From Acidobacteriota bacterium (GTDB lineage Bacteria; Acidobacteriota; Thermoanaerobaculia; Thermoanaerobaculales; Sulfomarinibacteraceae): a DNA stretch of 45,587 nucleotides. The stretch is taken from NCBI GenBank assembly GCA_013152895.1, contig JAADFN010000183.1:1-45587 (forward strand), read 5' to 3'. This document shows, one piece after another, positions 1 through 43,839 of the stretch; position 1 is the stretch's first letter; the number at the start of each line of letters is the position of its first letter. The position numbers and the translations under genes were made by a program. The notes under the pieces were generated by a model. The model saw only the letters and a program-made list of their open reading frames with translations, searched no databases and was not told the origin of the DNA.

Positions 1-337
1 CCTGCTGCAAGCAGGGCCTCCCGGACGCTTTCCCGGTCTCTCGACGAACACGAATTGCCGGTCAACCGCAAATCTCGGCATATCTTGGTGAGGCCGCCCC
101 CCCCTTGTTCGTCCGTAGACGTGGTGCCACTCCTGGGGCATGACGATGCTCAGGATGACAGGGAGAAAGAAATGTACGCCGGCGAGTGTATTCGGGAGCG
201 CTCGAAGGAATGGGCGGTGGGGATGCCGCGGGCTCGCCGTGCTTCGGCTGCGCCTCAGCGTTGCCGCGGATAGTTCGGCTGAACGCGGCGCTTGGTTTCG
301 GAGCGCTGTTGGGGCACAATTCGAATGCGGAGGCAGG
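1..337. other. intergenic/upstream region without a convincing gene
   Basis: Several short overlapping reading frames occur here, but none has a ribosome site or a recognisable product. The only structure of note is a weak promoter-like pair just ahead of the C69 peptidase: TTGGTT at 292-297 and CACAAT at 315-320, with a 17-base spacer. It is followed by GGAGG at 329-333. The match to the sigma-70 consensus is poor (3/6 and 4/6), so the promoter is only a possibility. The left edge may be the tail of an element or gene lying outside the window. Confidence 0.4.
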
Positions 338-7230: not shown

Positions 7231-9360
7231 ATGAGACGGAAACTTTTCCTCACCGGAGTCCTCGTTGCAGTCGCCGCGATCGCGGGGGCCACGGCGCCGG
7301 CGGCGCAAGGAGCGAAGCGGGCGTTTGCAATCTCCGATTATTACAAGACGGCGTTCATCGGCGGGCCACAGGTTACCGATGACGGAACACTCGTCGCCTT
7401 CACCGTGCGGCGATTCGAACTGGAGAAGGGCGAAAACTGGTCGGAAATCTGGGTGATGGCGCCGGACGGATCCCATCAGCGGCAGATGACCTTCGGCCAT
7501 CACCATGACGGTACACCCATCTTCTCACCGGACGGCACGAAGCTGCTCTTCGTGTCGGATCGTTCGGGGAAGACCCCGCAGCTGTATGTCATGACTGTCA
7601 ATGGGGGAGAGCCCCGCAAGCTGACGAGCTGGCCGTTGGGCGTCAGCCATCCCGTGTATTCCCCCGACGGAAAGTGGATCGCCGTGACATCGCGGGTGTA
7701 CCCGGAGTGCGGCGCCGACGCGGAGTGCAACGAGACGACCTTCAAGGACTGGACCGGGGGGAAGCTCAAGGCGCACATGGCGACCCGGCTGCTCTACCGC
7801 CACTGGACGACGTGGCGGGACGGCAGGTACAGCCACATCCTGCTGGTCGATGCGGCGACCGGGAAGGTGGTCCGGGACCTGACGCCCGGCATGTACGACA
7901 GCCCCACGTTTTCCCTGGAAGGGGAGACGGGGTACGCGTTTTCCCCCGATAGCACCGAGCTCTGCTACGTCTCCAACCACGACCCACACCCGGAATCCTC
8001 GACGAACTCGGACCTGTGGGTGGTGCCCGTGGCTGCGGCGAAGGCGGATATCAAGCCCGTCGACATCACGAGCGCGAACCACGGGTGGGATGGATCGCCG
8101 GTCTACTCTCCCGACGGCCGGTTCATCGCCTACCGGAGTCAACAAACGCCCGGCTACGAATCCGATCTCTTCCGGATCGCCGTGTACGACCGGCAGAAGA
8201 AGGTGAGCCGGTACCTGACGAACCGTTCGACCTTCGACAACTGGATCGATGACATCGCGTGGGGGCCTGCCGACCGAGCGATCTATTTCCAGGCCGAAGT
8301 GACGGGAGAGAACCCGCTGTTCAAGATCGATCCGGCTACCGGGAAGATCACCAAGCTCTTCGGCGACGGAACGATCCAGGAGTGGCACGTGCTGGGGAAT
8401 GGCCGAGTGATCTACACGCGCCGCACGGTGGGCGAGCCGCCCGAGATCTTCTCCGCGGCCCCCGACGGGACGCACCGCGTGCGCCTGACGACGTTCAATC
8501 TGAAGCTCGAGCAGGAGGTGGATATCCGCCCGGCCGAGGTGATGTGGGTCCAGGGGGCTGGAAACTACAAGGTCCAGGTGTTCATCATCAAACCGCACGA
8601 TTTCGACCCGGCCAAGAAATACCCGCTGATCCTCAACGTGCACGGCGGCCCGCAGCAGCAGTGGACTGACGGGTACCGCGGCGACTGGCAGATCTACCCC
8701 GGAAAGGGGTACGTCGTGGCGTTCGCCAACCCCACCGGATCGCCCGGGTACGGGCAGGATTTCGTCGACGCCATCAGGGGCGACTGGGGCGGGCGGGTCT
8801 TCAGGGACCTGATGAAGGTCACGGACGCGCTTGAGAAGCTGCCGTACGTCGACCCGAACCGGATGGGTGCGATGGGGTGGTCGTACGGCGGCTACATGAT
8901 GATGTGGTTCGAGGGCCACACGACCCGCTTCAAGGCGATCGCATCGATGATGGGAGTGTATGACCTGCGCGCGATGTTCAGCTCGACGGAAGAGCTGTGG
9001 TTCCCCGAGCATGATCTCGAGGGCAAGCCATGGACGTCCAAGGATTACAGCCTGTGGTCCCCATCGAATTATGTCACGCGCTTCAAGACTCCGTGCCAGG
9101 TCATCACCGGCGAACAGGATTTCAGGGTGCCCTACACGCAGAGCCTCGAGTTCTTCACCGACTTGCAAGAAATGGGCGTGCCGTCCAGGCTGATCGTCTT
9201 CTCCCACGCGTGTCACTGGCCGAGCTGGTACGAGATGGCGTTTTACTACGACCTTCACCTGGACTGGTTCCACCGGTGGTTGGGAGGAGGCGCGGCGCCC
9301 TGGGATCCGCAGAAATTCTTGCGCAACGAGGTCTTCAAGGATCAAAAGAAAACTCGCTAG
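7231..9360 (+). CDS. exported S9 family peptidase with TolB-like propeller (DPP IV/acylaminoacyl-peptidase type)
   Basis: The 709-residue product has a signal peptide (MRRKLFLTGVLVAVAAIAGATAPA). A seven-bladed propeller follows, with repeated SPDG motifs (FSPDGTKLLFVSDR, YSPDGKWIAV, YSPDGRFIAY) of the TolB/WD40 type. The C-terminal prolyl-oligopeptidase domain has GWSYGGYM with the nucleophile near Ser551, GEQDFRVPY with the Asp near 630, and HACHWPSW supplying the His (659 or 662). Such enzymes remove dipeptides or acylated residues from peptides outside the cytoplasm. The ATG at 7231 has GGAGG eight bases upstream. This is the third exported peptidase in the first 9.4 kb, pointing to a protein-degrading lifestyle. 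Repeat copy 1 begins 46 bases after the stop. Confidence 0.92.
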   Translation: MRRKLFLTGVLVAVAAIAGATAPAAQGAKRAFAISDYYKTAFIGGPQVTDDGTLVAFTVRRFELEKGENWSEIWVMAPDGSHQRQMTFGHHHDGTPIFSPDGTKLLFVSDRSGKTPQLYVMTVNGGEPRKLTSWPLGVSHPVYSPDGKWIAVTSRVYPECGADAECNETTFKDWTGGKLKAHMATRLLYRHWTTWRDGRYSHILLVDAATGKVVRDLTPGMYDSPTFSLEGETGYAFSPDSTELCYVSNHDPHPESSTNSDLWVVPVAAAKADIKPVDITSANHGWDGSPVYSPDGRFIAYRSQQTPGYESDLFRIAVYDRQKKVSRYLTNRSTFDNWIDDIAWGPADRAIYFQAEVTGENPLFKIDPATGKITKLFGDGTIQEWHVLGNGRVIYTRRTVGEPPEIFSAAPDGTHRVRLTTFNLKLEQEVDIRPAEVMWVQGAGNYKVQVFIIKPHDFDPAKKYPLILNVHGGPQQQWTDGYRGDWQIYPGKGYVVAFANPTGSPGYGQDFVDAIRGDWGGRVFRDLMKVTDALEKLPYVDPNRMGAMGWSYGGYMMMWFEGHTTRFKAIASMMGVYDLRAMFSSTEELWFPEHDLEGKPWTSKDYSLWSPSNYVTRFKTPCQVITGEQDFRVPYTQSLEFFTDLQEMGVPSRLIVFSHACHWPSWYEMAFYYDLHLDWFHRWLGGGAAPWDPQKFLRNEVFKDQKKTR

Positions 9361-9406
9361 CGCGCATGTCTCGCGGACTTTCGTCGCGGGACCGCGGGGG
9401 CCGTCT

Positions 9407-9561
9407 GTCAGTGTGGCGTTTCGACCAAGGCGGGGCCAAGGCGTGCCTGGGGCACGTCGTCGGCGCCACCGCCGCGGGAAATGCCGCAATGGCAGGCGTA
9501 TCCGCGGTCGCAGCAGGAAGTGTGTAAGATATGCGGGCGAGAACGGGGCGTGGACGTCCAT
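9407..9561 (+). repeat. dispersed intergenic repeat, copy 1
   Basis: This 155-base stretch matches copy 2 (22405-22551, opposite orientation) along nearly its whole length, and copy 3 (43680-43745) at its right part. The block at 9497-9518 is identical over 22 bases with 22446-22467 on the other strand, and copy 3 differs from it at one base. A second conserved block is GTTTCGACC followed by AGGCGG and GCCA at about 9419-9438. The copy sits between an S9 peptidase and the phosphohexomutase gene and ends 24 bases before the latter's start. No coding potential is shared beyond what DNA identity gives. Confidence 0.85.
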
Positions 9562-22404: not shown

Positions 22405-22551
22405 TGATGTCCATGCTCCGTCCAACCCCGCACGTCTCACGCACATCCTGCTGCGACCGCGGATACGTCCGCGGTTGTGGCGTTCCCCGGAGCGACGGCG
22501 CCGACAACGTGGCCCGGGCTGGCACCGCCTCGGTCGAAACACCCCGCTGAC
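22405..22551 (-). repeat. dispersed intergenic repeat, copy 2
   Basis: On the minus strand this 147-base stretch aligns with copy 1 (9407-9561) from the GTCAG...GTTTCGACC block at one end to the GGAC.TCAT end at the other, with a few short gaps. The identical 22-base core is at 22446-22467. In this copy the core sits beside a perfect inverted repeat, CCGCGGA-TACG-TCCGCGG (22457-22474). It fills most of the space between the convergent genes glpD and ilvE. Confidence 0.85.
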
Positions 22552-22577
22552 GGGGCACGGTCTCGCAAAGCCCCTGA

Positions 22578-23504
22578 TTACTCCACCGGCGTCAGCCAGC
22601 CGAACCGATCCTCCTCGTCGCCGTTGACGATGGCGAAGAACCGTTTTTGGAGCTCGAGGGCCACGGGACCCGCCTTGCCCTTGCCGACCGGGATGTGATC
22701 CACGGACCGGACCGGGGTCACCTCCGCCGCCGAGCCGCTGAAGAAGACCTCCTCCGCGTGGTAGAGCATCTCGCGCGGGATGACGTGCTCGTGCACCTCC
22801 AGCCCCATCTCGCGGGCGAGGACCATGATGCAGTCCCGGGTGATCCCCTTGAGGACCGAGCTACCCAACGGCGGCGTCATCAGCTTGCCGTCGTACACGA
22901 TGAACACGTTCTCACCGGACCCTTCGCAGATGTTGCCGTTGACATCCAGGGCGATCCCCTCCGTGTACCCGTCGAGATTGGCCTCCATGCGGATCAGCTG
23001 CGAGTTGAGATAGTTCGCCGTCGCCTTGACCATCGCCGGAAACGTGTTCGGCGCCATCCGCGTCCAGGAAGACACCCGTACATCGACGCCGTTCATCAGG
23101 GCTTCCTCGCCGAGATACGCGCCCCAGGACCAGGTCGCGATCGCGACATCCACGGGGCACGAGGTGGGGTCGACCCCCAGGCTGCCCATGCCACGGTAGA
23201 CCAGCGGCCGGATATACGCGCTCTTCAACTTGTTGACGGACAGCGTCGTCTTGACAGCCTCGTTGATCTGGTCTTCGGAGAACGGGATCTCCATCCTGAG
23301 AACCTTGGCCGAATTGAAGAGCCGGTGCGTGTGATCCTGCAGCCGGAAGACCGCCGGGCCGATTTTCGTGTTGTCATAGCATCTCAGACCCTCGAACACG
23401 CCGCTCCCGTAATGGATGACGTGGGAGAGAATGTGAATCTTCGCATCGGCAAAATCCACGAGGTTTCCGTTGATCCAGATCTTTTCACAGCCGTCAAACG
23501 CCAT
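22578..23504 (-). CDS. ilvE: branched-chain amino acid aminotransferase
   Basis: The 308-residue class IV PLP aminotransferase carries out the last step of Leu, Ile and Val synthesis (or the first of their breakdown). It shows IWINGNLVDFADAKIHILSHVIHYGSGVFEGLRCY at the N terminus, the PLP lysine at about Lys160 in MVKATANYLNSQL, and the family signature EGIALDVNGNICEGSGENVFIVYDGKLMTPPLGSSVLKGITRD. Length equals E. coli IlvE. The start at 23504 is set by GGGAGG seven bases upstream and the family N terminus; the open frame runs 65 codons further without support. It is separated from the redox operon behind it by that operon's terminator. Confidence 0.95.
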   Translation of the reverse strand: MAFDGCEKIWINGNLVDFADAKIHILSHVIHYGSGVFEGLRCYDNTKIGPAVFRLQDHTHRLFNSAKVLRMEIPFSEDQINEAVKTTLSVNKLKSAYIRPLVYRGMGSLGVDPTSCPVDVAIATWSWGAYLGEEALMNGVDVRVSSWTRMAPNTFPAMVKATANYLNSQLIRMEANLDGYTEGIALDVNGNICEGSGENVFIVYDGKLMTPPLGSSVLKGITRDCIMVLAREMGLEVHEHVIPREMLYHAEEVFFSGSAAEVTPVRSVDHIPVGKGKAGPVALELQKRFFAIVNGDEEDRFGWLTPVE

Positions 23505-43679: not shown

Positions 43680-43745
43680 CCGTCGGCGCGAGAAGCGCCG
43701 CGCGGGCGTATCCACGGTCGCAGCAGGAAGTGTGAGAGCTATGCG
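43680..43745 (+). repeat. dispersed intergenic repeat, partial copy 3
   Basis: The right portion of the repeat is present. 43707-43728 matches the 22-base core of copies 1 and 2 with a single difference (A at 43714), and the flank AAGTGTGAGAGCTATGCGGG resembles the same flank in copy 1. Left of the core, CGTCGGCGC and GCCGCG match copy 1 if about 20 bases are deleted here, and they form a small stem, GGCGC-GAGAA-GCGCC (43685-43699). The copy lies just after the subtilase stop. Confidence 0.75.
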
Positions 43746-43839
43746 GGGTAGGCCACACTCGCAGTACCTGAGACAACGGTTCCAAGGTACGAAATTGGGT
43801 CTACCCCCTGTGCGGGTGGCCCATGGTGTGGGCCCAAGG

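Follow-up and report, generated by a model that had tools for sequence, protein, structure and literature searches.

Extent of the repeat and its copies in the window

The window analysed here, a stretch of 45,587 nucleotides from an Acidobacteriota genome, carries an intergenic repeat at three places, and the locus raises the question of what this repeat is and how it came to lie at gene ends. The initial annotation described a unit of about 150 bp whose three copies share a 22-base core. The core is indeed present at the three places (0, 0 and 1 mismatches). The unit is a dispersed repeat, but it had been clipped: alignment of the genome copies extended it to 180 bp, between the well-defined ends AGCCCGCATATCTCAC...GTGTGAGATATGCGGGCT. 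The features of the window are the following.

9359-9539, + strand: copy 1, a complete 180-bp hairpin element (model R1 match, E 3.4e-42)
9357-9360, + strand: left target copy of copy 1, CTAG (from the sequence; YTAR duplication was shown on other copies)
9538-9541, + strand: right target copy of copy 1, CGAG, one change from CTAG (from the sequence)
9359-9382, + strand: 5' arm of outer stem P1, a terminal inverted repeat of ~24 nt with its partner at ~9516-9539 (from the fold and pair counts)
9380-9390, + strand: 5' internal-loop motif TTCGTCGCGRG (near-invariant in the genome and across genera)
9497-9518, + strand: 22-base core, including the 3' internal-loop motif CGCAGCAGGA (from core matches and copy alignments)
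22425-22569, - strand: copy 2, 5' stem arm lost (model match C183:22425-22593 (-), E 5.6e-24)
43680-43749, + strand: copy 3, 3' half only (model match ending at 43749, E 7.2e-9, and sequence)

Copy 1 had been placed at 9407-9561; the repeat is real, but these bounds missed its first 48 bases and added 22 flanking bases. Copies 2 and 3 are also real and their bounds were corrected to those listed. Copies 1 and 2 align on opposite strands, over 114 nt at 77%. In the alignment, homology of copy 2 stops near 22569, short of the model match end at 22593, and its 5' stem arm is lost where the element abuts the end of an aminotransferase gene (stop 22578-22580). All three copies lie just after gene ends, as had been noted, and copy 1 starts inside the TAG stop codon (9358-9360) of an S9-peptidase-like gene (7231-9360). 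No reading frame is common to the copies, again in agreement with the initial annotation, and the copies covary as a hairpin, which rules out the remnant of a protein gene.

The contig itself begins inside another repeat (window 1-110, - strand), in which the fragment TTCGTCGAGAGACCG is fused to GGGAGGCCCTGCTTGCAGCAGG palindromes. The same TTCGTCGAGAGACCG/GGGAGGCCCTGCTTGCAGCAGG composite was found at many contig ends (L061-L069, L039, L041, L050, L070) and probably causes assembly breaks.

Copy number and distribution

Searching the 3.0-Mb genome for the 22-base core with at most 3 mismatches gave 40 matches, against 0 for the reversed control pattern, so its recurrence is not due to chance. 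A second motif from the opposite end of the unit, ACTTTCGTCGCGAGACCG, had 79 genome matches. The profile search for tens of copies that had been proposed was performed with a covariance model and returned 133 matches at E <= 0.01, corresponding to ~108 distinct sites once 25 opposite-strand matches at the same places, counted by hand, were subtracted. Short, non-coding, bounded by terminal inverted repeats and dispersed in many copies, the element shows the general traits of a MITE.

Two copies stand head-to-tail at L008, 179 bp apart and without spacer; in a second tandem pair (L004/L034, 180 bp apart), the second copy is a left half. Half elements are recurrent, both left (L031, L004/L034, L040, L042) and right (L001, L013, L015, L022, L029). 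Left halves stop near GTTTCGACC (position ~66) and right halves begin at ~88-103, flanking the apex. These breaks on either side of the apex could result from hairpin cleavage of the palindrome.

The element is not confined to this genome. Model R2 matched 26 of 60 genomes at E <= 1e-6, and almost every genus of the family was represented among them. Of 396 Acidobacteriota genomes, 55 from 40 genera were matched by model R3 at E <= 1e-9, in a survey that scored just 6 candidates per genome. The best R3 matches measured ~180 nt, and most contained the loop motifs and had YTAR flanks. Across relatives, the loops are conserved as CGTnGCGAG / CGCAGYAGA and the stems covary heavily. Named records containing the relatives' core are MAGs bearing the labels Thermoanaerobaculales, Holophagae or Acidobacteriota. 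Searches of plasmids, phages and viral contigs for the element yielded nothing convincing. No Rfam family reached its gathering threshold, and the element was not found in the literature searched. About 40 bp beside one copy, L268 contains an Acido-Lenti-1 match (1717-1764, - strand) of 28.1 bits, for a threshold of 37. Altogether, the repeat is not restricted to the three copies of the window, has relatives in other genomes and does not derive from a protein gene.

Insertion at YTAR sites

Empty sites in relatives, which the initial annotation had named as a sign of mobility, were found for copy 1 and for a related site. In G001, a genome of the same genus, the gene pair flanking copy 1 (S9-peptidase-like end, phosphomannomutase start) is present without the element: the empty site reads ...ACGAACTGACACG... 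and the filled site of the window ...ACTCGCTAG-element-CGAGAACG.... In G012, one copy is inserted inside another repeat, whose empty paralogue reads CAATGTCTAGGGTGG; this paralogue has a single CTAG where the filled site has CTAG-element-CTAG. The same genome harbors a second repeat family with inverted arms, TTGACATTGTTTG...CAAACAATGTCAAGGGTGGCTCC, at more than 20 places (L216 flanks; paralogues L319, L321-L329).

Among 80 copies from relatives, YTAR was found at 43 left and 51 right ends, for a background of 0.0015 per base. When both ends had YTAR (35 copies), the Y agreed in 31 (Fisher 1e-5) and the R in 28 (0.002), which rules out a duplication of TA only. Identical 4-mers occurred at both ends in 27 cases against 19.0 in within-genome shuffles (p 0.0006). 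The duplicated YTAR overlaps the model ends, and the test placed just outside them was negative. These data indicate that a 4-bp YTAR target (CTAG, TTAA, TTAG) is duplicated at insertion.

Insertions occur in both orientations. In G416, four identical copies occupy four CTAG sites and therefore point to recent movement in this genome. With target duplications, empty sites and identical recent copies, the proposal of a non-autonomous mobile element holds. Its mobile nature is well supported, and the mechanism by which it would move is considered below.

Hairpin fold and covariation

The element is almost wholly an imperfect palindrome of ~180 bp. Its consensus folds into one end-to-end hairpin of -131.5 kcal/mol (z about -13), with conserved internal loops in which TTCGTCGCGAG (5' side) lies opposite CGCAGCAGRA (3' side), and beyond them an apical stem, GGCGTAC...GTACGTCG. 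This consensus hairpin was the structure used; the RNAalifold structure on the first alignment was out of register.

In copies from the genome itself, 84.8% of cells were paired, versus 34-48% with one side slid. In a 34-copy alignment, which includes 28 copies from relatives found by the structure-aware model R2 and hence favors well-paired matches, 92.7% of cells were paired (36% after a one-column slide) and 384 cells had changed on both sides, versus 116 +- 9.5 in shuffles. This bias weakens what the pairing counts can say for a structure needed in propagation; the loop motifs and the constant length provide partly independent support for the hairpin. The compensatory base changes expected of a structured element are thus present, in the form of a conserved covarying hairpin.

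The G005 copies (L197-L206) differ in one respect. Their outer stem varies between copies while remaining almost perfectly complementary, with 62 double changes against ~9 broken pairs and 2 G.U cells, and most of their YTAR flanks are gone. The possibility that each insertion regenerates the outer stem was considered as well, and the four identical G416 copies speak against it. Perfect, variable stems with only 2 G.U cells would suit an ordinary decayed MITE of one IS, in which one arm served as template for correcting the other (quasipalindrome template switching) and so produced the apparent covariation. Such correction would leave unexplained why one strand folds better (see below), and also the loop motifs and the 180-nt length kept across 40 genera, so that we regard this origin as very improbable.

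Strand asymmetry of the fold

Where one strand forms a G.U pair, its complement has an A.C mismatch, and the balance of the two therefore identifies the strand whose fold is relevant. Among copies of this genome, departures from the commonest pair comprised 73 G.U and 59 A.C (p 0.26), a split that fits near-neutral decay of these copies. Across genera, departures comprised 69 G.U versus 16 A.C (p 5e-9), in addition to 167 double Watson-Crick changes. Per-genome consensus sequences contained 1-10 G.U and 0-2 A.C, and the sense strand folded better in 8 of 8, with little dependence on match ranking. In four sets of individual copies, one strand was better folded in 58/60, 19/20, 23/24 and 19/23. 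In the propagating lineage, the length, the stem pairing (with compensatory changes), two internal-loop motifs and a strand asymmetry have thus been preserved, whereas single copies of this genome undergo roughly neutral decay and are often broken into halves. We infer that the folding of one of the strands is important for propagation; the G.U/A.C test fits RNA and single-stranded DNA alike.

A transposase acting on double-stranded DNA offers no reason for this asymmetry. Spread through a folded single strand would supply one, the fold itself being the substrate, either as RNA (SINE-like retroposition) or as a single-stranded DNA hairpin (REPIN-like, with an HUH enzyme). The G.U excess over A.C restricted to the propagating lineage, the conserved unpaired loop motifs, a strand that is nearly always the better folded and the half copies broken near the apex are all in its favor. 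So is the G005 outer stem, which would be free to vary if complementary. Ordinary MITEs need conserved end sequences, and the differing G005 stems count against a MITE-like reading to that extent.

Position at stop codons

In 32 of 90 copies (36%), 17 of them sense and 15 antisense, the junction coincides exactly with the stop codon of a long frame. YTAR sites in the flanks coincided with such stops in 33 of 118 cases (28%). Recognition of stop codons as such was therefore rejected: YTAR alone gives nearly the observed share. Placement at gene ends arises because YTAR sites include TAA and TAG stops preceded by a pyrimidine, and insertion at stops is frequent because the gene is left intact there. 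YTAR targeting and avoidance of coding sequence thus explain the gene-end placement.

Copies at 3' untranslated positions might instead be structured RNAs useful to the host, such as processing or stability signals at gene ends, maintained copy by copy. Strong covariation, with compensatory changes even within the G005 genome, is compatible with this, and effects on mRNA are known for copies of ERIC and Correia (PMC2229807, PMC10969869). Signals of this kind should not decay about neutrally, as copies of this genome do, many being halves; their orientation relative to the gene is even (17 versus 15), their sites differ between species of the same genus, and the YTAR target already accounts for the stop codons. 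A host function at each site is accordingly improbable.

Search for a mobilising enzyme

The copies had been described as free of transposase genes, and among the Pfam families searched no enzyme moving the element was located. This genome has no IS630-type (PF13358) or IS4/IS5-type (PF01609) transposase, and few copy-rich relatives have one; reverse transcriptase RVT_1 (PF00078) is likewise missing here and in most of these relatives. Y1 transposases (RAYT-type, PF01797) are common, but a copy lay beside one in just 1 of 25 regions, and they were undetected in some copy-rich, incomplete genomes. This case, not repeated elsewhere, is L083 of the present genome (G000:C100:2660-3284), where a full copy is followed ~120 bp downstream by a Y1 transposase gene. 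Among the loci read, none showed a longer element sharing the ends of the repeat. IS630, IS4/IS5, RAYT and reverse transcriptase were thus rejected as mobilisers, being absent here or not adjacent. The search took in a small number of Pfam families across 20-60 genomes, together with the loci fetched.

These results bear on both views of the movement. Retroposition is at odds with the lack of RVT_1, and a REPIN-like route with the single region in which a Y1 transposase neighbors a copy. Moreover, HUH insertion does not typically leave a 4-bp target duplication, whereas DDE transposition does. Spread through a folded strand is therefore rather unlikely. It is equally doubtful that a phylum-wide element propagates by a strand-specific fold read through its two internal loops and yet produces a 4-bp YTAR duplication; if true, this combination would be a mechanism not described for MITEs, REPINs or retroposons.

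We consider it probable that the repeat is a non-autonomous palindromic element of ~180 bp, mobilised in trans into 4-bp YTAR sites, whose propagation requires its structure. The putative trans-acting transposase would cut with a 4-bp stagger, in the manner of the IS5 group at YTAR, and the element would insert into the cut; the structure would be required for propagation, without a job at each site. The lack of a plausible mobiliser, with PF13358 and PF01609 absent here and from most copy-rich relatives, weighs against this reading.

If this reading holds, Acidobacteriota genomes each harbor up to ~100 copies of a structured mobile element, which accounts for the repeats at their stop codons. 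The neutral decay of copies, set against the strand-specific structure of the lineage, also makes it testable whether folds of hairpin MITEs are kept for movement.

Comparison with known systems

ERIC, Correia/NEMIS and RUP are non-coding, intergenic, multi-copy units of ~105-155 bp with inverted-repeat ends, long stem-loop transcripts and a target duplication with TA at the ends (PMC2229807; PMC10969869). The present element shares with them its non-coding nature, inverted-repeat ends, intergenic position, many copies and TA in the duplication. In contrast to ERIC, Correia and RUP, its sequence and 180-bp length differ from the published units (PMC2229807), its duplication is a 4-bp YTAR rather than the 2-bp TA, and its host has no transposase of the IS630 type to which those families are linked. 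It is also phylum-wide in Acidobacteriota, with conserved internal loops and strand-specific pairing.

A 4-bp YTAR-type duplication is common to the element, the IS5 group, which duplicates YTAR (PMC10359306), and MITEPsy1, which inserts after CTAG or YTAA and duplicates its target (PMC3189936). Unlike these, the element begins with CCCG... instead of GGAAGG... and forms a full-length hairpin; nor does it have the IS5-type ends and transposase of an IS5-group MITE (no PF01609 in the genome).

REPINs of the REP-RAYT system are extragenic hairpins in many copies, probably moved in trans (PMC3116915). The element resembles them as an extragenic hairpin in many copies, but is a 180-bp unit rather than two short REPs, has a target duplication and shows no consistent adjacency to RAYT (24 of 25 regions without a copy). 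Of the "REP/MITE-like" label given initially, the MITE part is therefore retained on inverted repeats and duplication, and the REP/RAYT part is dropped on adjacency. A SINE-like retroposon would differ in that the host lacks RVT_1 and that halves of both kinds occur rather than an excess of 5'-truncated copies. Acido-1 and Acido-Lenti-1 (Rfam) are acidobacterial structured RNAs, but the element has no above-threshold match to them.

The best reading is thus a palindromic MITE-like element of the ERIC/Correia/MITEPsy1 kind with a fixed strand-specific architecture. What sets it apart from ERIC, Correia, RUP and MITEPsy1 is that its 180-bp architecture is fixed, that it is conserved phylum-wide, and that it has internal loops and strand-specific pairing.
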